In this document: positions 46,476 to 61,665 of the stretch, in pieces
How positions within the stretch are numbered: the first letter of the stretch is position 1
How the letters are laid out: each line of letters opens with the position of its first letter
From: Leeuwenhoekiella parthenopeia
Lineage (GTDB): Bacteria; Bacteroidota; Bacteroidia; Flavobacteriales; Flavobacteriaceae
NCBI RefSeq assembly: GCF_020782115.1
Contig: NZ_JAJGMW010000004.1
Location: 186,001-250,000 of the forward strand
DNA length: 64,000 nt
Direction of reading: 5' to 3'
The notes under the pieces: model-generated
What the model saw: the letters and a program-made list of their open reading frames with translations, nothing else
Databases searched by the model: none
What the model was told of the DNA's origin: nothing
Translations under genes and position numbers: made by a program

Positions 46476-48881
46476 ATGGAATCATGTTATCACTGTGGCG
46501 ACTCCTGCGGGGAGCACGTCCTGGCGCATCGCAGCAAGTTCTTTTGCTGCAGTGGCTGCAAAACGGTTTACGACATCCTGTATGAAAACAACCTGTCGTA
46601 CTACTATGATCTGGACAAAAGTCCGGGCAACACGCCTAAAGATTTCAAAGGTCGGTTTGATTATCTGGACAACCCGGAAATCAAGGCCAAACTGCTTGAT
46701 TTTGACGAGCAGGCCACACAGATCGCATCGTTTACCATACCCGCCATACATTGCAGCTCCTGCATCTGGGTACTGGAAAACCTGAGCAAACTGCGCCCGG
46801 CTATCAAAAGCACTCAGGTGAACTTCCCTGAAAAAACCATTCGCATCACCTTCAATTCGGCTGAAATCAGTCTCAGGGAAGTGGTTGAACTGCTGTGCAT
46901 GTTGGGTTACGAACCGGTGATTTCGCTACAGGATTTCAACAAAAAAGAGCGCAAAAAAGACCGCTCCCTCATTTACAAACTGGGCATCGCAGGCTTTGCC
47001 TTTGGAAATATCATGTTTCTCTCCTTCCCCGAATATTTTGAGGTTGAAGAGTTTTGGCTAGACCGGTATAAACCCATTTTCAGGGCTTTGATGTTGGTAT
47101 TCTCCATTCCCGTGGTGCTGTACTCAGCCCGGGATTATTTTACTTCGGCCTTTAAATCGCTGCGCTCGCGTATGCTGAATATAGACGTGCCCATCGCTTT
47201 GGGCATTCTGGTACTCTTTCTGCGTTCGTGCTATGAGGTGATTACCAACACCGGGACCGGCTTTTTTGATAGTCTGGCGGGATTGGTTTTCTTTCTTTTA
47301 CTCGGAAAGTTTTTTCAGCAGAAAACCTACGCTTATCTCAGCTTTGAGCGCGACTACAAATCCTATTTCCCCATCGCAGTAACCCGCCTGGAAACCGAAG
47401 GAGCCCAACGGGAAAGCCAGATTCCGGTTTATGAGATCAAACCAAAAGATCGCATACTCATACGCAATGGCGAACTCATCCCGGTAGACGGGATCCTGAT
47501 TAAAGGAGATGCGCTTATCGACTACAGTTTCGTAACCGGCGAGGCCGAACCCGTATCTAAAAAAACAGGTGATACGGTCTTTGCGGGTGGAAAACAACAG
47601 GGCGGTATTTTGGAACTCAGCGTGACCAAAGCCGTCGAACAAAGTTACCTCACCCAATTGTGGAGCAACGAAATCTTTCAAAAAGAACGGCAAAACGAAC
47701 TCGACTCGCTTACGACCAAAATAAGCAAACACTTTACCCTCGGCGTTCTTGGGATTGCCCTGGCTGCGTCCCTGTTTTGGTGGTTTGTTGACCCCTCAAA
47801 AATACTCCATGTCTTTACCGCAGTGCTCATTGTCGCCTGCCCATGCGCCCTGGCCTTATCTGCTCCCTTTACCCTGGGCAATCTGCTGCGCATCACGGGT
47901 AAACACAAGTTCTACTTAAAGGATGCAGGAGTCATAGAACAACTGGCGGCCGTTGATACGGTGGTTTTTGACAAAACAGGCACGCTGACCTCAGCTTCCA
48001 AAGAAGCCATACGCTATAGCGGTGAAAGCCTTACCGAACATGAAGAATCCCTGCTTACCAGCACGCTCAGGGCTTCAAATCATCCACTGAGCCGCAGTTT
48101 GTACAGCATGTTTCAGGATTATAAAATCAAGGTTCTTGATGATTTTGAAGAAGAACCGGGAATGGGAATCACCGGCACGCTTAAAAAACAGGAAATCCGT
48201 GTGGGTTCGTATGCCTTTGTTAATGCGCTTCCGCCCGAAAAAAAACAGCTTGCAGACAGTCATACCAGCGTACACATCGCCACGCAAACCGGCTATAAAG
48301 GCTGCTACACTTTTCAAACCACCTACCGCAGCGCTTTAAAATCGGTGTTTCGGGAACTGAGCAAAAATGTCGAACTCGTTATTCTTTCGGGCGATAACGA
48401 CAGCGAGCAAAGCAGGCTGAACAGACTACTCGATGTTCCGGTGGCGATGCATTTCAATCAAAAACCCGAAGACAAGCTGAAGTTTATCAAAAGTCTGCAG
48501 CAACAGGGTAAAAAAGTGATGATGGTGGGTGACGGACTCAACGACAGCGGCGCTTTGGCACAAAGCGATGTGGGTATCGCCATTTCTGAAAATGTAAATG
48601 TCTTTTCACCCGCCTGCGACGGGATTCTGGATGCTTCGCGTTTTGAGCAATTGCCTGCCTTTATAAAACTTGCCCGGAATGGTAAACGCATCATCAAATG
48701 GAGTTTTGTCCTATCGCTGCTTTACAATGTGGTGGGGCTCGCGCTGGCCGTAAGCGGAAACTTAAAACCCGTCTACGCCGCGATTTTAATGCCCTTAAGC
48801 TCCATCAGCATCGTGGCATTTACCACATTATGCACCTATTATTTCGGCAGCAGTTTAAAAAATCCCGAAGAAGACGAATAG
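46476..48881 (+). CDS. ccoI: CcoI/FixI-type copper-translocating P-type ATPase
   Basis: This 801-residue P1B-type ATPase begins with a Cys-rich segment (CYHCGDSCGEH, then CCSGC, residues 4-26) of the kind seen in FixI/CcoI proteins. A heavy-metal-associated domain follows with C93-S-S-C96. Membrane helices come next, then the copper motif C455-P-C457, the phosphorylation site D499 in DKTGTLT, and GDGLNDSGALA. CcoI exports Cu(I) for cbb3 oxidase assembly rather than for detoxification. Its position directly before ccoS and the oxidase genes supports this role. Confidence 0.95.
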   Translation: MESCYHCGDSCGEHVLAHRSKFFCCSGCKTVYDILYENNLSYYYDLDKSPGNTPKDFKGRFDYLDNPEIKAKLLDFDEQATQIASFTIPAIHCSSCIWVLENLSKLRPAIKSTQVNFPEKTIRITFNSAEISLREVVELLCMLGYEPVISLQDFNKKERKKDRSLIYKLGIAGFAFGNIMFLSFPEYFEVEEFWLDRYKPIFRALMLVFSIPVVLYSARDYFTSAFKSLRSRMLNIDVPIALGILVLFLRSCYEVITNTGTGFFDSLAGLVFFLLLGKFFQQKTYAYLSFERDYKSYFPIAVTRLETEGAQRESQIPVYEIKPKDRILIRNGELIPVDGILIKGDALIDYSFVTGEAEPVSKKTGDTVFAGGKQQGGILELSVTKAVEQSYLTQLWSNEIFQKERQNELDSLTTKISKHFTLGVLGIALAASLFWWFVDPSKILHVFTAVLIVACPCALALSAPFTLGNLLRITGKHKFYLKDAGVIEQLAAVDTVVFDKTGTLTSASKEAIRYSGESLTEHEESLLTSTLRASNHPLSRSLYSMFQDYKIKVLDDFEEEPGMGITGTLKKQEIRVGSYAFVNALPPEKKQLADSHTSVHIATQTGYKGCYTFQTTYRSALKSVFRELSKNVELVILSGDNDSEQSRLNRLLDVPVAMHFNQKPEDKLKFIKSLQQQGKKVMMVGDGLNDSGALAQSDVGIAISENVNVFSPACDGILDASRFEQLPAFIKLARNGKRIIKWSFVLSLLYNVVGLALAVSGNLKPVYAAILMPLSSISIVAFTTLCTYYFGSSLKNPEEDE

Positions 48882-48955: not shown

Positions 48956-49171
48956 ATGAGTATCATTTATATGCTTCTCGCGATAAGCGTGGTTGTGGCT
49001 TTAGTCTTCTTTGCGGCATTTATTTTCTCGGTGCGCAAGGGACAGTACGATGACACCTATACCCCTTCGGTACGTATGCTGTTTGAAGACGAACTCGTGA
49101 AAAACACAGGGTCTTCCGCAGACAAAAACCAACAATCCATTACCAATCATTCAGATCGCAAATCGAAGTAA
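48956..49171 (+). CDS. ccoS: CcoS, cbb3 oxidase maturation protein
   Basis: This 71-residue protein has one N-terminal helix ([24 protein letters not shown]) followed by the family's RKGQYDD motif and a polar tail. CcoS/FixS is needed for cofactor insertion into cbb3 oxidase. It lies between ccoI and ccoNO, two bases before the latter, the usual arrangement. Confidence 0.93.
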
Positions 49172-49173
49172 TT

Positions 49174-51378
49174 ATGCAAACAGAACAGTTTTATTACGAC
49201 AACAAAATCGTAAGAAAGTTTATCATCGCCACCCTGTTTTGGGGGCTCATCGGGATGAGCTTGGGCTTGCTGCTGGCCTTTATGTTTTTATTTCCCAACA
49301 TCACAGACGGCATCTCGTGGCTGAGTTTTGGCCGCCTGCGTCCGCTACACACCAATGCGGTGATTTTTGCTTTTGTGGGGAACGCCATTTATGCCGGGGT
49401 GTATTACTCGTCACAGCGCCTGCTTAAAGCCCGTATGTGGAAAGACTGGCTGAGCAACTTCAACTTTTGGGGCTGGCAGGCGATTATTGTCGCCGCAGCC
49501 ATCACACTGCCGCTGGGCTACACCACTTCTAAAGAATATGCAGAGCTCGAGTGGCCTATAGACATTATGATCGCGCTGGTTTGGGTGGCTTTTGGAGCCA
49601 ACCTCATCGGTACCATCCTCAAACGCAGACAGCGCCATCTCTATGTGGCCATTTGGTTTTACCTGGGCACTTTTGTGACGGTGGCCGTGCTTCATATTGT
49701 AAACAGTATCGAGCTGCCCATAAGCGCGCTTAAAAGTTATTCGTATTACGCCGGGGTGCAGGATGCGCTGGTACAATGGTGGTACGGGCACAACGCGGTG
49801 GCATTTTTCCTGACCACTCCGTTTCTGGGTCTGATGTACTACTTTGTACCCAAAGCCGCCAACCGGCCTATCTACTCCTACCGACTCTCGATTGTACACT
49901 TTTGGTCGCTGATTTTCATTTACATCTGGGCAGGGCCGCACCACTTGCTGTACACCGCACTGCCCGGCTGGGCGCAAAACCTGGGAGTTGCCTTTTCCGT
50001 GATGCTGATCGCGCCATCCTGGGGTGGTATGATCAACGGCCTGCTTACCCTGCGTGGCGCCTGGGATAAGGTACGTACCGATCCGGTTTTGAAATTTATG
50101 GTGGTTGCCATTACCGGTTATGGGATGGCCACCTTTGAAGGGCCGATGCTTTCGCTTAAAAATGTAAATGCCATTGCGCACTTCAGCGACTGGATCATCG
50201 CACACGTGCACGTAGGCGCCTTGGCGTGGAATGGCTTCCTGACTTTTGGGATGGTCTACTGGATGGTGCCGCGATTATTCAAAACGCAGCTTTGGTCTAC
50301 CAAACTCGCGAACGTACACTTCTGGGTAGGTACTTTGGGAATCATTATGTACGCGCTGCCTATGTATGTGGCCGGTTTTGTACAGGCTTCAATGTGGAAA
50401 CAATTCAATCCTGACGGAACCCTTACCTACGGAAACTTTCTGGAGACTTTAACCGAAATCATCCCGATGTACTGGATGCGGGCTATAGGTGGTTCGCTAT
50501 ACATCCTGGGTGCCTTTGTGATGCTCTATAATATTATTAAAACTATAAGAAGCGGAAGCAAAGTGACCGACGAACTCGCCGAAGCTGCACCGCTTAGCCC
50601 CGTGACCCCCAAACGTACCGCAAAAGAAGGCTACCATACCTGGCTGGAGCGTCGCCCGGTTCAACTCACCATCTTCGCCACCATTGCTATTTTGATTGGC
50701 GGTATGGTGCAGATCATTCCGTCACTGATTGTAGATGATTATGTACCCGTGATTTCTACGGTAAAACCCTACACCCCACTGGAGCTTGAAGGGCGTGACC
50801 TCTACATCCGCGAAGGTTGTGTGGGCTGCCACTCACAGATGATCAGACCCTTCCGCAGTGAAGTAGAGCGTTACGGCGAGTACTCCAAGTCGGGCGAGTA
50901 TGTCTACGATCATCCCTTCCTCTGGGGAAGCAAGCGCACGGGACCTGATTTATTTCGCGTAGGCGGAAAATATTCAGACAACTGGCACCTCAACCATATG
51001 TATGATCCGCAGAGTACCTCAGCCGGTTCAATTATGCCGTCTTACAGTTGGTTGATACGCAGCGAACTCGATAAGTCACAGACCGAAGACAAGATGAAAG
51101 CGATGAAGCAACTGGGCGTACCCTATACGGTTGAAGATATTGAGCGCGCCCAGCAATGGATGAGCGAACAGGGCGAACAGATTGAAAAAAATCTGTATGC
51201 CGACCCCGATTTTGCCAAAACCTATGAAGCCGATAAAAAAGCTGCTGCTCAAAACGGAGCTGATTTTGTCGAAATGCGCAACCGCGAGATCGTCGCGCTT
51301 ATCGCCTACCTGCAACGCCTGGGAACCGATATCAAGATTAAAACCGGTGCCGAAAATTCAACCGCAAAAACCGAATAA
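49174..51378 (+). CDS. ccoN: Cytochrome cbb3 oxidase subunits I and II as one fused protein (CcoNO)
   Basis: This 734-residue fusion has CcoN in the first ~480 residues: a haem-copper oxidase core with 12 helices, [29 protein letters not shown] (copper and haem His) and [13 protein letters not shown] linker and a helix lead to CcoO (about 520-734) with one c-type haem site C549-V-G-C552-H553 ([15 protein letters not shown]). In proteobacteria these are separate proteins; to my knowledge the fusion is common in Bacteroidota. It reduces oxygen at high affinity and pumps protons. It forms an operon with ccoQ, ccoP and ccoG. Confidence 0.96.
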
Positions 51379-51380
51379 CC

Positions 51381-51572
51381 ATGCTCAAATTTGTCAAACA
51401 AAATCTGGAAAACATAGACGGGGTGGCCATCTATCCCATCATCTCCCTGCTCATTTTCTTTGTGTTTTTTGTTGCCCTGTTTGCCTGGGTGATCACCGCA
51501 AAGAAGCATTATTTACAGGAAGTGAGTGCGCTTCCGCTTGAAGAAGACCTTTTAACACCAGACCAGCCATGA
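51381..51572 (+). CDS. ccoQ: CcoQ-like small subunit of cbb3 oxidase
   Basis: This 63-residue protein has one membrane helix (about 17-41, IISLLIFFVFFVALFAWVI) followed by a short cytoplasmic tail containing KKHYLQEVSALPLEED. The size, topology and place between ccoNO and ccoP identify it as the CcoQ/FixQ equivalent. Its stop overlaps the ccoP start (ATGA), indicating translational coupling. Confidence 0.85.
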   Translation: MLKFVKQNLENIDGVAIYPIISLLIFFVFFVALFAWVITAKKHYLQEVSALPLEEDLLTPDQP

Positions 51573-52552
51573 GAAGTATCGCATCTATACTACGCATTTT
51601 AGCTTTTGCGGGCTTTGCCTACCTCTTTCTAAATTATGTGGGTACACCCGAAAATGAAGCTTCGGTATTTACCACCCAAAACTGGCTCTGGGCCATCTAT
51701 GCCGTGCTCGTCTTTATGTACATCGCTTTTGAGATTTGTATTGAAAGCTTACGCGCCGTCCTCTTTAAGTCCCTAAAGCCGGAAGCCCAGGAACAGTACC
51801 AGGCTGAAGTTGAAGCCAAAAAAAGACGCATGGCGTCCTGGTTTAAAGGCCTGTACGGTAAACTCTGGAAAGCAAAGCCTGTAGAGCAGGAAGAAGAAAT
51901 CTTGCTGGACCATAATTATGACGGTATCAAAGAACTCGACAACCGTCTGCCACCCTGGTGGGTGTATGGCTTTTACGCTACTATTCTGTTTGCAGCGGTG
52001 TATTTGTTACGCTTTGAAGTCTTTGGCGATTACGACCAGATCGATGAGTATGAGCAGGCAGTCGCGCAGGCTAAACTGGATCTGGAAGAATACAAAAAAA
52101 CCGCTAAGGATCTGGTAGATGCCAACACCGTAGAGCTGCTTACCGATGCAAGCGATATCAAAGCAGGAGAAGTCCTTTTTACCGGGAATTGCATCGCCTG
52201 TCACAAAGCAGGCGGCGCGGGCGGAATTGGCCCCAACCTCACCGATGACTACTGGATTCTGGGTGGCGGTATCAAAAATGTCTTTCACACCATCGCCGAA
52301 GGAGGACGCGCCGGAAAAGGCATGATCTCCTGGAAAACCGACCTGAAACCCGGTGAAATCGCGCAGGTAGCCAGCTACGTATTGAGCCTGCACGGCACCA
52401 ACCCGGCAGATGCCAAAGAACCGGAAGGAGAAATCTGGATTGATGAAAACGCGCCCGTAGAAGCAGTGCAGGTACAGCAGGATTCTACCGGTATTGAGGT
52501 GATTTTAGAACAGGAACCGGTGATCGATGACATCATCACAAACGAAAATTAA
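51569..52552 (+). CDS. ccoP: CcoP, cytochrome c subunit of cbb3 oxidase, single-haem form
   Basis: This 327-residue protein has two N-terminal helices (about 5-25 and 40-65), a cytoplasmic charged segment, a third helix (WWVYGFYATILFAAVYLL, about 129-148) and a periplasmic cytochrome c domain. Only one haem-binding site is present, C208-I-A-C211-H212 (GNCIACHKAGGAGGIGPNL), with the likely Met ligand in GRAGKGMISW. Classical CcoP has two haems. The single-haem form shortens the electron path from the donor cytochrome. The C-terminus is an acidic tail. Confidence 0.94.
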   Translation: MRSIASILRILAFAGFAYLFLNYVGTPENEASVFTTQNWLWAIYAVLVFMYIAFEICIESLRAVLFKSLKPEAQEQYQAEVEAKKRRMASWFKGLYGKLWKAKPVEQEEEILLDHNYDGIKELDNRLPPWWVYGFYATILFAAVYLLRFEVFGDYDQIDEYEQAVAQAKLDLEEYKKTAKDLVDANTVELLTDASDIKAGEVLFTGNCIACHKAGGAGGIGPNLTDDYWILGGGIKNVFHTIAEGGRAGKGMISWKTDLKPGEIAQVASYVLSLHGTNPADAKEPEGEIWIDENAPVEAVQVQQDSTGIEVILEQEPVIDDIITNEN

Positions 52553-52557
52553 TAACC

Positions 52558-53979
52558 ATGGCCGCTCAGGATCAGGAACATTTTAGGGACAGCATAGGCA
52601 CCATCAACGATGCGGGCAAACGCGCGTGGGTGTATCCTAAAAAACCGGTGGGCAAACTCTACGAGTACCGCAAACTGGTGAGCTATGCGCTGCTGCTCTT
52701 TTTATTCGGTGCGCCGTTTGTACACATCAACGGCAACCAGTTTCTGATGTTCAATGTGCTGGAGCGTAGGTTTAATATTTTCGGCTTTCCGTTCTGGCCG
52801 CAGGATTTTCACCTCTTTGTGATGATGATGATCATCGGGGTGGTCTTTGTAGTGCTGTTTACGGTTGCTTTTGGCCGAATCTTTTGCGGGTGGATTTGCC
52901 CTCAGACCATATTTATGGAAATGGTCTTCCGCAGGATTGAATACTGGATTGATGGTGACCGCGGGAAACAAATACGCCTAAACAACATGCCCTGGAATGC
53001 CGAAAAAATACGGAAGCGTCTGCTGAAATGGTCGGTCTTTTTTGTGATCTCGTTTCTCATTGCCAATGTGTTTCTGGCCTATCTCATAGGCAGCGAGCGC
53101 CTGCTGCAGTACATCACCGACGGCCCGGCAAACCACGTAAGCACGCTTATCTCGCTGCTCATTTTCACCGGCGTGTTTTACTTTGTTTTCGCCTGGTTTC
53201 GCGAGCAGGTGTGTATCATCGTGTGTCCCTACGGCAGGTTGCAGGGCGTTTTGCTCGACACCAAATCTATCTTGGTGGCTTACGATTACAAACGCGGCGA
53301 GAAAGAAGCCGGCAGAGCCAAATTTAAAAAGACTGAAGACCGCGAAGCAACAGGCAAGGGGGATTGCATCGACTGCTTTCAGTGCGTAAATGTGTGCCCC
53401 ACCGGGATTGACATCCGCAACGGCACCCAGCTGGAATGTGTAAACTGCACCGCCTGTATTGACGCCTGCAACCAGATGATGGAGGCGGTAAACCTGCCCA
53501 AGGATTTGATTCGCTATGCCAGTGAAGAGAACATTGAGAAGAAGACGAAGTTTCAGTTTACTCCGCGTCTTAAAGGCTATACCGCCGTACTGATCATTCT
53601 AATTGGCGTATTAAGTGGGATGCTCTTTTTACGCAATGATGTGGAAGCAAACGTGCTGCGCCTGCCGGGTCAGCTCTATGAGCACAAAGCCGAAGATATC
53701 ATCAGCAATGTGTACACCTTTAAGCTCATCAATAAAACCACGCGAAAAATTGAAAACGTGCACTTTGAGCTGATTTCGCATAGCGGAAGTATTAAAGTGG
53801 TGTCGCAGGAAACACTTGAAGTACCGGCACAGGGACTTGCGGAAGGCACGCTTTTTATAGAAGTGAAAAGCGCTGATCTGGAAGGCGAAAAAGAACAATT
53901 AAAAATAGGGGTTTACAGCGGTGAACGGCTCATAGAGACCACCCGCACCATCTTTCTGGGGCCCCGAAGCTATAACTGA
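52558..53979 (+). CDS. ccoG: CcoG/FixG/RdxA-type ferredoxin membrane protein
   Basis: This 473-residue protein has several membrane helices. It includes the FCGWICPQTIFMEMVFRRIEY motif (GWICPQ) typical of the family. A double [4Fe-4S] ferredoxin segment has C270-x2-C273-x2-C276-x3-C280 followed by CVNCTACIDAC. The periplasmic C-terminal domain is of the IgG-like FixG_C type. CcoG is reported to reduce copper for cbb3 assembly. It follows ccoP by five bases and precedes the small Cys-rich gene. Confidence 0.95.
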   Translation: MAAQDQEHFRDSIGTINDAGKRAWVYPKKPVGKLYEYRKLVSYALLLFLFGAPFVHINGNQFLMFNVLERRFNIFGFPFWPQDFHLFVMMMIIGVVFVVLFTVAFGRIFCGWICPQTIFMEMVFRRIEYWIDGDRGKQIRLNNMPWNAEKIRKRLLKWSVFFVISFLIANVFLAYLIGSERLLQYITDGPANHVSTLISLLIFTGVFYFVFAWFREQVCIIVCPYGRLQGVLLDTKSILVAYDYKRGEKEAGRAKFKKTEDREATGKGDCIDCFQCVNVCPTGIDIRNGTQLECVNCTACIDACNQMMEAVNLPKDLIRYASEENIEKKTKFQFTPRLKGYTAVLIILIGVLSGMLFLRNDVEANVLRLPGQLYEHKAEDIISNVYTFKLINKTTRKIENVHFELISHSGSIKVVSQETLEVPAQGLAEGTLFIEVKSADLEGEKEQLKIGVYSGERLIETTRTIFLGPRSYN

Positions 53980-53986
53980 TACGATC

Positions 53987-54136
53987 ATGGAAACTACAAA
54001 GAAACACAACTGCTGCCTGGGCTGTCAAAACGGAAAACCCGGTCAGAACCAGCATTGCAGGGTACGCCTGTTTAAAGAAGAGCAAAAACAGAAAAAAGCC
54101 CTGAGTCAGGATGAATTGGCTAAAAAATATAATTAA
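53987..54136 (+). CDS. 49-residue cysteine-rich protein between ccoG and ccoH
   Basis: A short open frame beginning ATGGAAACTACAAAG lies seven bases after the ccoG stop and ends 46 bases before ccoH. The product starts METTKKHNCCLGCQNGKPGQ and has Cys at 9, 10, 13 and 24, with His at 7 and 23. The rest is basic and helical (KEEQKQKKALSQDELAKKY). The C-C-x2-C-x10-C pattern suggests a metal or Fe-S site, perhaps copper in view of ccoG, ccoI and the TauE-like neighbour. No family is recognised. Coding is supported by tight spacing and operon position, not by homology. Confidence 0.6.
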   Translation: METTKKHNCCLGCQNGKPGQNQHCRVRLFKEEQKQKKALSQDELAKKYN

Positions 54137-54182
54137 CCCCCGGCGGGGAAGGTTTTCATTTAAAAAATTAAAACACATCACT

Positions 54183-54629
54183 ATGAAATTCAATTGGGGA
54201 ACCGGGCTCGTCATCGGTATGCTAAGCTTTATGAGCTTTATCCTGTACTTTGTAATCACGATGTCTACAGACCAGAAATACAGCTATGATCTGGTTATCG
54301 AAGACTATTACAAGCACGAGATGAACCTGCAGGGCGCCATAGACGCCACCGAAAACAGCAATCAGCTCGAAACACCGGTAACCGGTACCAAAACCGAAGC
54401 GGGTTACCTCATTGCTTTTCCTGAAAATTTAGATCCTAAAGCCATTACCGGCTCAGTGTTCCTGTATAGACCGTCTGCCCGGCAACTTGATTTTGACATG
54501 CCTATACGCCTGTCATCTTCTAATTTGCTCATACCTGACAAACGCCTGGTTGGCGGTCGCTGGAACATTACCATTACCTGGGAATACGAAGGTAAAAACT
54601 ACCGCTTTGAGGATGAAATAACCTATTGA
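54183..54629 (+). CDS. ccoH: CcoH/FixH-type cbb3 assembly protein
   Basis: The protein has 148 residues from the ATG at 54183 (MKFNWGTGLVIGMLSFMSF). The alternative start at 54111 would overlap the Cys-rich gene. One N-terminal helix (about 7-30) carries the family's KFNWGTG and YYKHEMNLQ features (DLVIEDYYKHEMN). A periplasmic beta-rich domain of the FixH type follows, ending RWNITITWEYEGKNYRFEDEI. FixH/CcoH is required for stable cbb3 assembly. The next gene starts two bases after its stop. Confidence 0.9.
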   Translation: MKFNWGTGLVIGMLSFMSFILYFVITMSTDQKYSYDLVIEDYYKHEMNLQGAIDATENSNQLETPVTGTKTEAGYLIAFPENLDPKAITGSVFLYRPSARQLDFDMPIRLSSSNLLIPDKRLVGGRWNITITWEYEGKNYRFEDEITY

Positions 54630-54631
54630 TT

Positions 54632-55339
54632 ATGATCGCAACGGCACTTCTTTTCGGACTTTTGGGCAGTTTGCATTGCGTGGGCATGTGTGGGCCTATC
54701 GCGTTTTTGATGCCGGTAGATCACCGGAATCCGCTGAAAAAGTTCTTTCAAATACTCAGCTACCACAGCGGGCGGCTGCTTACCTATGCGCTTATTGGCT
54801 TTCTGTTTGGAGCCGTGGGAGAGCGTTTAAACCTCTTTGGCTTACAGCAGCAACTTTCTATCGCCGTAGGTGCCCTGATGATTACCGCGGTGGTAATCCC
54901 TTCCCGAATCTTTAACCGCTACAACCTGTCAAAACCTGCGTACAAACTGGTGGGACGTATCAAATCGGCCTTGGGTCAGCAGCTTAAAAGCAAACGCAAA
55001 AGCACCTTTTTTACCCTGGGCTTATTAAACGGTCTACTCCCCTGCGGACTCGTGTATATGGCGGTGTTTGGAGCTTTGGGCACCGGCGGCGCATTCCACG
55101 GAAGCCTGTATATGCTGCTCTTTGGATTAGGCACCGTACCCCTGATGACTTCAGCCCTCTATCTGGGAAATTTTATAAAAGGCAAAGCCAAAAAACAAAT
55201 TGTCAAGGTCATTCCTATTCTGGTGATCCTGATGGGTTTTTTGTTTATCCTCCGCGGTTTGGGCTTAGGTATTCCTTATGTTTCCCCTTCGGAAAAGGTT
55301 GCTGTGGCGCAGGTAGAGGCGAGGCAGAGTTGTCATTGA
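54632..55339 (+). CDS. TauE/SafE- or DsbD_2-like membrane protein of the cbb3 cluster
   Basis: This protein of about 235 residues has six helices. I use the ATG at 54632; a TTG overlapping the ccoH stop two codons earlier is possible. Paired motifs are GSLHCVGMCGPI near the N-terminus and NGLLPCGLVYMA in the middle, as in the sulfite exporter TauE/SafE and DsbD gamma-like (UreH-type) families. Homologues often close cbb3 operons and are suspected in copper delivery. The C-terminal tail ends QSCH, possibly metal-binding. It is the last gene of the run. Confidence 0.85.
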   Translation: MIATALLFGLLGSLHCVGMCGPIAFLMPVDHRNPLKKFFQILSYHSGRLLTYALIGFLFGAVGERLNLFGLQQQLSIAVGALMITAVVIPSRIFNRYNLSKPAYKLVGRIKSALGQQLKSKRKSTFFTLGLLNGLLPCGLVYMAVFGALGTGGAFHGSLYMLLFGLGTVPLMTSALYLGNFIKGKAKKQIVKVIPILVILMGFLFILRGLGLGIPYVSPSEKVAVAQVEARQSCH

Positions 55340-55547: not shown

Positions 55548-55805
55548 AGCCTGAGAATAATTACAATTGAAAACTCAAATTATCATAGGCACATTATATT
55601 TGACCAAAACCAATAGGAGATACAGATAAAAAAGGCTCTTTTCTTTTGGCTAGGCCTGCCCTGAGCGGAGTCGATGGGTTTCTTTGGAGAAGCAAACCGA
55701 GGTACAAGGTTCACGAGGTCCATAACCAATAAGCGACAGCGAGCTAAAGAAAATGAACAGAGCATTCTAAAGAAACTCAAACATACAAATAGAAGATAGG
55801 GGATT

Positions 55806-56234
55806 CACTGTTCGCGAACGATTGGATCACGTGTAAGTCTTTCACTCATCCTTCGATTAGATGTCACTTCGAGTGGCTGGTGCATAGCGTTAGCGGAGCT
55901 TCAGGTATATAAAGAAGTCTGCTTAGTTGGGATGTTTATCGCTAACCGGGCTCCTCGATACAACCTTTGAAAGCCTGGACTCTCAGAAATTTAAGTTTTT
56001 CACTTCAAGCCATGTTCTGTCCCTTTTTTCCATCGATGAAAAAAGGAACCAAAAAAATCTAGGCTGACAAAGCTTTATCTAAATTTTTCATTCGCTCGCT
56101 AAATTTTAGAAACTCGCTTGATTATTCTCCTTAAAGATCAAAATACGTTTAACTCAAACAGTCTAAAATTTTTAACGCTCCCTCTTTTCAAATTTTACGA
56201 TAAATCTTTGTAGGCCAGTACTGGCGTTTTAATT
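55806..56234. repeat. ~430-bp direct repeat left of the toxin-antitoxin pair
   Basis: It matches 56880-57309 in the same orientation. The last ~245 bases (from about 55990) are almost identical, with a handful of differences; the first part is more diverged. It contains the hairpin CCTTTTTTCCATCGATG with its partner GAAAAAAGG. There is no coding character. Confidence 0.85.
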
Positions 56235-56283
56235 AGCTTTTTTTTAGAAACTGAATTAATTTTTATTCAAGACCTGTCGAAAA

Positions 56284-56577
56284 CTAAAGGTGTAATTTAA
56301 AATCCATCCGCTTACCCAGTACCCGAACCACAAAAATCTCATTTTGGTCTTCGACTAAATAAAAAATGGTATGTCCTTTAAACTGATAAAAAAATATGCG
56401 CTCTGCTATAAATGATGCTTTTCTAAGAAGTTCTGGTCTGGTCGCAAGCATCAGAAAGGTTTCTTCGAGTTCGAGTAAATAGTTTCGCGCAGGTAAAGAA
56501 CCAAAATGAGATACACCATATTTATAGATTTCAACTAAATCTTCTTCGGCTTTGGCAGAAAGCTTATAGCTCACCAT
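56284..56577 (-). CDS. ParE/RelE-family toxin
   Basis: This 97-residue protein begins MVSYKLSAKAEEDLVEIYKYG and contains RPELLRKASFIAERIFFYQFKGHTIFYLV split across strands, typical of ParE/RelE folds. It ends with VRVLGKRMDFKLHL. It overlaps the antitoxin gene by 14 bases and is second in the operon, as usual for type II pairs. ParE toxins act on DNA gyrase and RelE relatives on translation; the ParD-like partner favours ParE. The pair is enclosed by long direct repeats. Confidence 0.88.
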   Translation of the reverse strand: MVSYKLSAKAEEDLVEIYKYGVSHFGSLPARNYLLELEETFLMLATRPELLRKASFIAERIFFYQFKGHTIFYLVEDQNEIFVVRVLGKRMDFKLHL

Positions 56578-56806
56578 TATCTACTTTGGCTATGATATCT
56601 TTTATTTTAAGGGGACTCACCCCACTTTTTAAGCCGTCTTGAATTGCCCTTTTAAGCTCCAAAAGTTCTTCCGTTTCTTCCTGATCCTTTCGTACCAAGT
56701 CCCGTATATACTCACTATCATTAGTAAAATCACCATTTTCAACTTTCATCTTTATCCAGCGATCCTGCTTTTCTGTAAAAGTTATTGATTTTCGAATCGT
56801 GTCCAT
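56564..56806 (-). CDS. ParD-like antitoxin
   Basis: This 80-residue protein has an N-terminal ribbon-helix-helix-like segment (KSITFTEKQDRWIKMKVENGDFTNDSEYIRDLVRK, read in parts) and an acidic helical C-terminus that would wrap the toxin. TNDSEYIRDLV is typical of ParD/CopG-type antitoxins. It is first in the operon, presumably represses it, and its 3' end overlaps the toxin start. Confidence 0.88.
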   Translation of the reverse strand: MDTIRKSITFTEKQDRWIKMKVENGDFTNDSEYIRDLVRKDQEETEELLELKRAIQDGLKSGVSPLKIKDIIAKVDNGEL

Positions 56807-56879
56807 AAACTTTACTTTTGGTGCGTATCTGCACGTTTTTACACCACTAAGTTACGGTTTTTTTAGTTATTCTAATCTT

Positions 56880-57309
56880 CACTGTTCTCGTGCGATTGCA
56901 TCGCGTTCAAGTCTTTCCCTCATCCTTCGCTTAGATGTCACTTCGAGTGGCTGAGGCATAGCGCTAGTGGAGCTTCAGGCGTATCGAGAAGTCTGCTTAG
57001 TTTATCATTTTTATTACTAACCGGGGTTCTCGATATAACCTTTAGAAGCTTGGTCTCACAAAAATTTAAGTTTTTCACTTCAAGCCATATTCTGTCCCTT
57101 TTTTCCATCGATGAAAAAAGGAACCAAAAAAATCTAGGCTGACAAAGCTTTATCTAAATTTATCATTCGCTCGCTAAATTTTAGAAACTCGCTTGATTAT
57201 TCTCCTTAAAGATCAAAATACGTTTAACTCAAACAGTCTAAAATTTTTAACGCTCCCTCTTTTCAAATTTTACGATAAATATTTGTAGGCCGGTACTGGC
57301 GTTTTAATT
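56880..57309. repeat. ~430-bp direct repeat right of the toxin-antitoxin pair
   Basis: This is the second copy of 55806-56234 in the same orientation. Recombination between the copies would remove about 1.07 kb with the toxin-antitoxin genes. Nothing else recognisable lies between 57310 and the hemN terminator except degenerate words shared with 55620-55690. Confidence 0.85.
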
Positions 57310-59522: not shown

Positions 59523-59559
59523 GGTTACGGTTTTTTTCTTTAGGTATTATTTTTAGAGT

Positions 59560-61665
59560 TCGTTGATCTCCTAACGTCGATTTGCGTAATTAGAGGTTCT
59601 ATTGGTTCTTCCTTTCTTTTCTTTGCCTGTCCAAAGAAAAGAAACAAAAGAAAAGACACTTTTTCTTAGGTATTTTTGCCCTCAGGGGCAAAACCGCAAT
59701 AAGTCCCCTAAATTTTCTCCAAGGCTTCGAAAATTTTTAACGGAAACTTATTACTATACTGAAGAAAAAGAGGACTAAAGAACAATAAATCTAAAACATT
59801 AGATTATTTGCCAGTTATTGGAAAATTGTAAGTCATTTAACCCTTCGGGTTTGATTATATCAAAGCTTTCATCTGAGTTAAAATCTTACTGCCTTTTCCT
59901 TTGGAGAAGGGCTGGGGATGAGGAGAACGAGGACTTATTGCTATACTGAAGAAAAAGAGGGCTAAAGAATAAAACTCTTAGTCCTAATTTCAAAGACGGC
60001 CTACAAGAAGATATCGTAAAATTTGAAGTGAGCGCAGCGTCGCAGGCGGTTCTGTTTGAGGACGCGATAGCGGACGAGTTAACCGCCTGCAGCGCAGTGA
60101 ACGATAAATTTAGATATCGTCTTGTGAGCCTTGATCTTCCTGCCCGGCTGAATAGACGGGTTGGTTCTTTTGTATCAAGACAAAAGAACAGAAATGCTAA
60201 TTGAAGGTATAGTTTTGTTTTAAGTACTGGTAAATCTCCTAACGTCGATTTATGTAATAAGAGGTCCTACAGTTTGTCCCTTTCTTTTCTTTGCCTGTCC
60301 AAAGAAAAGAAACAAAAGAAAAGACACTTTTTCTTAGGTATTTTTGCCCTCAGGGGCAAAACCGCAATAACTTCCCTAAATTTTCTCCAAGGCTTAGAAA
60401 ATTTTTAACGGGAACTTATTGCTATACTGAAGAAAAAGAAGGCTAAAGAACAATAAATCTAAAACATTAGATTATTTGCCAGTTATTGGAAAATTGTAAG
60501 TCATTTAACCCTTCGGATTTGAATACTATAGATTTTAAATTTCTGAAAACAGTTACGATTAGGCTCCCTTCTCTCCCGAACCTTCGGGAGGAGAAGGGCT
60601 GGGGATGAGGAGAACGATAAATTTAGATATCGTCTTGTGAGCCTTGATCTTTTGGTTCTTTTGTATCAAGACAAAAGAACAGAAATGCTAATTGAAGTTA
60701 TAGTTTTGTTTTAAGTACTGGTAAATCTCCTAACGTCGATTTGTGCAGGCAATATTACCATAGCATGTTCTGTTCATTTTCTTTGCTTCTCCAAAGAAAA
60801 CGAACCAAAAGAAAAGAGCCCCTCGCTTAGGAATTTTTCGCCTCAGGGCGAAAACCGCCTTGTCAGCTCCGCGTCGCTAGCGCTCCTGTCCCTCGGAGCT
60901 GCCTGCGGCTATTCTGAACCGAGGGAGAGAAACTCGTTTAACCCTTCGGGTTTGATTATATCAAAGCTTTCTGAGTTAAAATCTGACTCCCTTTTCCTTT
61001 GGAGAAGGGCTGGGGATGAGGACAACGGGAACTTTTTGCTATACTGAAGAAAAAGAGGGCTAAAGAACAATAACTCTAAAACATTAGATTATTTGCCAGT
61101 CATTGGAAAAATGTAATCCGCTTAACCCTTCGGATTTGAATACTATAGATTTTAAATTTCTAAAAATAGTTAGGATTAGGCTCCCTTCTCCGGCGGGAGA
61201 AGGGCTGGGGATGAGGAGAACGATAAATTTAGATACCGTCTTGTCAGCCTAGCGTTTTTTGTTTCTTTTTTTTGGCAATGCAAACCGAGGCACGAGGTTC
61301 ACGAGTTCCCATATAATACAAATGACACGAGCTAAAAAAGAAAAGAACATACTTCAAACTATAAATATCTATGGGAAATTGAAATGTCAAGGTACGCGAT
61401 ACAATCGCGCACGAACGGAGGCTTAACCCTTCGGGTTTGAATACTATAGATTTTAAATTTCTGAAAAAAGTTAGAATTAGGCTCCCTTCTCCGGCGGGAG
61501 AAGGGCTGGGGATGAGGACAACGGGGACTCATTGCTATACTGAAGAAAAAGAAGGCTAAAGAAGAATAACTCTAAAACATTAGATTATTTGCCCGTAATT
61601 AGGGAATAGGCATCCAAACCTCAAGGTGCGCGATACAATCGCGCACGAACGGAGGTCAAAACCCG
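59560..61665. repeat. Gene-free array of interspersed hairpin repeats
   Basis: About 2.1 kb lacks genes and is built from modules that recur. CTCCTAACGTCGATTT occurs near 59567, 60235 and 60727. A CTATACTGAAGAAAAAGA block occurs near 59754, 59951, 60421, 61039 and 61533. A GGGCTGGGGATGAGG block occurs five times. TAACCCTTCGG occurs near 59839, 60506, 60938, 61123 and 61423. Several are hairpins, for example TTTCTTTTCTTTG with CAAAGAAAAGAAA (about 59616-59646) and GTTCTTTTGT with ACAAAAGAAC (about 60163-60188). Two large units (59565-60230 and 60231-60720) look like tandem, diverged duplicates. Confidence 0.85.

Follow-up and report, generated by a model that had tools for sequence, protein, structure and literature searches.

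Positions 53987–54136 (plus strand) of the window analysed here, a stretch of 64,000 nucleotides from Leeuwenhoekiella parthenopeia, contain a real gene for a small protein, which belongs to the cbb3 oxidase operon and is found in a subset of Flavobacteriaceae. The frame runs uninterrupted from ATG to TAA; its product, METTKKHNCCLGCQNGKPGQNQHCRVRLFKEEQKQKKALSQDELAKKYN, is 49 amino acids long and has cysteines at positions 9, 10, 13 and 24. A preliminary description of the window had proposed a cysteine-rich gene of 49 residues placed between ccoG and ccoH with operon spacing, and both parts of this proposal hold: the frame is open, kept and dominated by silent change, it starts 7 nt past the end of ccoG, ccoH begins 46 nt further on, and both neighbours are confirmed by profile matches. 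The motif CCxxCxxGxxGxNxxC has a single occurrence in the six-frame translation of the window. The features of the operon are as follows:

46476–48881, plus strand: ccoI, copper-transporting type P1B ATPase, 801 amino acids (PF00122, PF12156, PF00403)
48956–49171, plus strand: ccoS (FixS, PF03597)
49174–51378, plus strand: fused ccoNO, with COX1 plus FixO matches in one ORF
51381–51572, plus strand: short ccoQ-like ORF, weakly matched (FixQ E 0.19, CcmD E 0.046)
51569–52552, plus strand: ccoP (FixP_N)
52558–53979, plus strand: ccoG, 473 amino acids, homologue of the Rhodobacter capsulatus cupric reductase CcoG (TIGR02745, E 5.2e-129)
53987–54136, plus strand: the small gene, a conserved 49-codon frame under purifying selection
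54183–54629, plus strand: ccoH, 148 amino acids (FixH, PF05751, E 1.6e-22)
54635–55339, plus strand: DsbD_2-type membrane protein, the last gene of the operon (PF13386, E 1.3e-52)

Selection on the frame and spacing in the operon

Purifying selection acts on the 53987–54136 frame. Two checks had been proposed with the preliminary description, namely the dN/dS of the frame and a search for its loss, or for stops at the same place, in relatives. The search found the frame in nine members of the genus, each time without an internal stop. Silent change is dominant, with a pooled pS of 0.687 versus a pN of 0.130 (Nei–Gojobori, the same nine members) and, wherever dS is finite (20 of the 36 pairs), an omega of 0.019–0.160, the remaining 16 pairs being saturated. 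The cysteine codons themselves show silent exchange of TGT and TGC between copies. Residues that are conserved while their codons change silently speak for a functional product. Every alternative frame, whichever the strand, is interrupted in at least one of the nine members, and the antisense ORF at 53930–54259 (109 codons) is broken within the small-gene stretch in six of the nine. A functionless frame that is open by chance could account for the short length, the absence of known domains and the lack of the gene in the majority of ccoG-bearing relatives; however, such a frame is highly improbable given the strong purifying selection on a conserved reading frame, the cysteines that are invariant in copies from nine genera and the constant position between ccoG and ccoH.

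The distance from the ccoG stop to the start of the small gene is 7 or 8 nt in the nine Leeuwenhoekiella copies and 35 to 199 nt in ten copies outside those nine. On the other side, the interval before ccoH varies between −11 and 210 nt across the 19 copies. In four of them, all among the ten outside the nine Leeuwenhoekiella, it is negative, the start of ccoH being overlapped by 4 nt (L089, L054 and L065) or 11 nt (L068).

Several further features of this region were observed. CcoN and CcoO are joined as one ORF of 734 amino acids at 49174–51378. In four of the nine Leeuwenhoekiella copies (L047, L048, L084 and L088) ccoH follows the small gene after 77–210 nt, as if a short intergenic element were inserted there, and in the other five after 10–46 nt. 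Downstream of the operon, at 55804–57306, direct repeats of 300 nt and 125 nt (95% and 86% identical, respectively) recur about 1075 nt apart, with a ParE/ParD-like toxin–antitoxin pair on the minus strand (56284–56577 and 56564–56806) between them; part of the 300-nt repeat has another copy (82%) elsewhere in the genome. A second direct repeat pair is located at 59544–60500 (289 nt, 91% identical, spacing 668), in a searched stretch that ended at 60500, so that the repeat may extend beyond this point.

Distribution in the Flavobacteriaceae

Within the genus, ccoG was found in 10 of 13 genomes, and the same 10 carry the small gene between ccoG and ccoH; the genomes G007, G008 and G012, the last of which is 81% complete, gave no good small-gene match. 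One of the ten carriers, G006, shows 9% contamination, and the CcoG found in it clusters with that of G318, a genome of another genus, at 100/100 support. Hence, its copy probably stems from a contaminant, so that the sound genus cases number 9 of 12. In the family, ccoG was found in 302 of the 397 genomes searched. Strong small-gene matches were obtained in 12 of the 397, belonging to nine genera, and all 12 are located in the ccoG–ccoH interval, whereas 290 of the 302 genomes with ccoG gave no strong match. The tie to this oxidase branch that the preliminary description had suggested is supported by position and by co-occurrence within the genus, but does not extend to flavobacterial cbb3 operons in general (12 of 302). 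The small gene lies inside the cco operon and co-occurs with the latter, and in this sense belongs to the accessories of the cbb3 operon; it would be needed for oxidase activity conditionally at best.

Outside the family sample, weak matches at E 0.02 or better were found, besides the window's genome, in 2 of 296 genomes drawn from the order and in 5 of 296 drawn from the phylum. The best of these, in G933 (E 7.5e-4), is free of stops, and six of the seven carry internal stops. Four further family genomes (G074, G230, G388 and G405; E 0.013–0.047) and a second, weak place in G276 were not counted; three of these frames (L033–L035) were inspected, and tblastn found neither ccoG nor ccoH at any of these five loci. 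In G230, a match with an E of 1.9e-4 (locus L034, about 1501–1569) adjoins a gene that by eye is clpB-like, again with neither ccoG nor ccoH. It resembles the CCxxC..G..G.N..C core, contains two in-frame TAA stops and may be a relic or a chance match (about 0.08 expected over 397 genomes).

The intergenic stretch itself was surveyed in 110 ccoG–ccoH spacers (30 + 80), taken from those closest to the window's CcoG among the 302 genomes, with the known carriers G276 and G277 excluded from the 80. The small gene is present in 10 of the 30, and a diverged copy was found in one of the 80, of which one spacer (L157) gave no ccoH match. The diverged copy (L095) occupies the same place and retains CC-x2-C with a fourth cysteine nine residues on, and its P-G-x-N core is gone. 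Among the 20 gene-less spacers of the first 30, 11 are just 4–57 nt long, and the relatives that lack the gene provide natural comparisons. The difference can be found within a single genus: G229 carries the gene, and its congener G396 has a 20-nt spacer at this place. With presence and absence mapped on a tree of CcoG (39 sequences), six changes are needed, of which three are imposed by branches with good support. The gene has therefore been gained or lost more than once, gains and losses being indistinguishable on this tree. At the cut-offs used, no CcoG column separates the 19 carriers from the 20 non-carriers, and all 12 cysteine columns of the CcoG alignment are common to both.

The small protein and its putative metal site

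The protein ranges from 41 to 57 amino acids in length. In an alignment of 19 copies, nine of which come from one genus and are not independent, M1, C9, C10, C13, G16, G19, N21 and C24 are invariant (M1 being a TTG start in one copy) and P18 and L28 are nearly so. The core CCxxCxxGxPGxNxxC is followed by a charged tail, which is well kept inside the genus and variable outside it. The preliminary description had pointed to the four cysteines together with flanking histidines; the cysteines are indeed invariant, but the histidines are not conserved, H7 being present in 6 and H23 in 5 of the 19 rows (counted by eye on the alignment). The protein is predicted to be soluble and cytosolic because no hydrophobic segment is visible by eye. 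AlphaFold2, run on the window protein with eight relatives, gives a cysteine loop followed by one helix (residues 22–48) at low confidence (pLDDT 61.3, pTM 0.33). Nothing in Pfam or NCBIfam comes near the cut-off for the window protein or for the 19 members, and PDB chain sequences gave no match up to E 10; the family has no name in the collections searched. Listed domain matches at E 0.068–0.15 were to unrelated families, one member each, and were set aside. The listed titles and abstract openings of papers on cbb3 and ccoG in Bacteroidetes and Flavobacteriaceae, on cbb3 in Leeuwenhoekiella and on small cysteine-rich proteins contain nothing on the gene.

The four fixed cysteines surround a Gly/Pro/Asn turn, an arrangement suggestive of a metal-thiolate or thiol site, and the location between ccoG and ccoH suggests a role in oxidase maturation. 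We infer from the sequence that the product is a metal-thiolate protein. The earlier proposal of a small copper chaperone or an Fe-S or zinc protein remains plausible because the four cysteines are invariant in all 19 copies. One possibility is a structural zinc or Fe-S mini-protein, whose cysteines would hold zinc or a cluster and whose helix would dock on CcoG or an oxidase assembly intermediate and stabilize it, with no transfer of copper. The cysteines around the turn, in an arrangement that we take to resemble a zinc-knuckle loop, the 4Fe-4S domains that the neighbouring CcoG of the window also matches and the single helix that the low-confidence model shows after the cysteine loop are consistent with such a protein. 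However, no zinc or ferredoxin model matched, and adjacent cysteines are less usual in zinc and Fe-S sites, and we regard this as possible, if on the doubtful side.

We tentatively prefer, at somewhat less than even probability, that the small protein is a cytosolic Cu(I)-handling accessory acting between the cupric reductase CcoG and the ATPase CcoI. For R. capsulatus, passages of two papers (PMC8475189, PMC7558416) describe a cytosolic reduction of Cu(II) by CcoG and the export of Cu(I) for the oxidase by CcoI. The small protein, whose gene stands precisely in the interval from the reductase gene to ccoH, is a candidate for the carriage of Cu(I) from the one to the other. Its CCxxC...C loop would bind the Cu(I) made by CcoG and would subsequently hand it to CcoI, or buffer it. 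The protein would then be a lineage-specific aid to the metallation of the oxidase and not an essential step, because most ccoG-bearing relatives are without the gene.

A possible acceptor site lies at the N-terminus of the window's CcoI, where the stretch FCCSGCK includes the CCxGC that the small protein also has. The best local match of the small-family profile in this CcoI is CCSGCK, over 12 columns (P 0.0065 in a single comparison, hhalign probability only 5.8%), and BLASTP gives an E of 0.076 for it. CCxGC is present in all 19 of the CcoI N-termini fetched, from 9 carriers and 10 non-carriers, and its occurrence in 10 of 10 non-carriers makes the link between the motifs a hint and not a specific one. 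The matching of ATPase and chaperone motifs appears important according to passages of PMC8475189 and PMC7558416. According to PMC8475189, the first N-terminal metal site of R. capsulatus CcoI (N-MBS1) has the motif CPAC, which differs from CCxGC, and a donor other than CopZ, for example glutaredoxin or glutathione, is proposed for it. The window's genome has three HMA matches at E up to 0.01, two in one frame of 924 codons and one in ccoI, and no free-standing HMA (CopZ-like) protein at that threshold. A replacement of CopZ by the small gene was considered and found no support: the matches listed for 27 genomes (12 carriers and 15 non-carriers) include HMA frames no longer than 110 codons for 7 of the carriers and 9 of the non-carriers. 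Such frames are unrelated to carriage, so the gene is no simple stand-in for CopZ. A stronger version of the copper reading, in which the cbb3 pathway would have in this protein its first dedicated cytosolic Cu(I) shuttle outside the HMA type, carrying copper from CcoG to the CCxGC site of CcoI, is unlikely; if it were true, copper for the oxidase would not mix with the CopZ/CopA pool that serves detoxification.

Comparison with known copper and oxidase accessories

The chaperones of the CopZ/Atx1 type (PF00403) resemble the proposed role of the small protein as a small cytosolic carrier that delivers Cu(I) to a P1B ATPase via a cysteine motif. However, neither the window protein nor any of the 19 members has an HMA match, the small protein has CC-x2-C-x10-C in place of the MxCxxC of CopZ, and it is 41–57 amino acids long, whereas CopZ has about 70. 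With the N-terminal region of CcoI encoded in the same operon (PF12156, ATPase-cat_bd) it has in common a CCxGC and, directly after it, a K or Q. The PF12156 model, in contrast, does not match the small protein in hmmscan, the alignment being confined to the roughly 12 columns given above; CcoI has an upstream CxxC that is missing from the small protein, and the GxPGxNxxC of the small protein is missing from CcoI. In Cox17, a tiny mitochondrial copper chaperone that serves a haem-copper oxidase, adjacent cysteines are followed soon by a third and, about ten residues on, by another, a spacing like that found here. Unlike Cox17, the small protein contains one C-x10-C and not a twin CX9C, and it has no Cox17 Pfam match and no PDB match up to E 10. 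Cox17 is given as absent from prokaryotes in a passage of a review (PMC7558416).

A small thiol-redox partner that keeps the cysteines of CcoI or CcoG reduced, or a subunit-like stabilizer of the oxidase, is quite unlikely. CC and CxxC pairs are present and a DsbD_2-type protein closes the operon, but a match to the thioredoxin or glutaredoxin families is absent. The small protein is hydrophilic and cysteine-rich and by eye has no hydrophobic stretch, unlike CcoM, which is a membrane subunit. Still, CcoM, a protein of 36 amino acids described as a subunit of the Pseudomonas stutzeri cbb3 oxidase in the part of PMC10433244 concerned with it, is a precedent for a tiny cbb3-linked protein.

CruR and CutF are likewise short cysteine-containing ORFs beside copper or oxidase genes, and both are described as sensing chains that act while still nascent and carry an arrest motif at the C-terminus; CutF is also exported. 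By analogy, the cysteines of the small ORF could sense the metal or thiol state during translation and set the expression of ccoH, with which the ORF, located directly 5′ of it, has a start/stop overlap in 4 of 19 copies. We consider such a regulatory ORF improbable. CruR homologues are the first genes of their operons according to the relevant part of PMC9426467, whereas the small gene lies mid-operon; a DUF2946 match is absent, and by eye none of the 19 sequences has a signal-peptide-like segment or a RAPP-like end. The variable distance to ccoH also speaks against it, and the conserved residues with silently changing codons already described argue for a product that works as a protein. Returning to the copper-handling accessory that we prefer, small operon-encoded accessories of haem-copper oxidases have precedents as a kind, such as CopZ and CcoM, and even if the metal were another, the protein represents a small-protein family, tied to a well-studied oxidase, on which the papers listed contain nothing.
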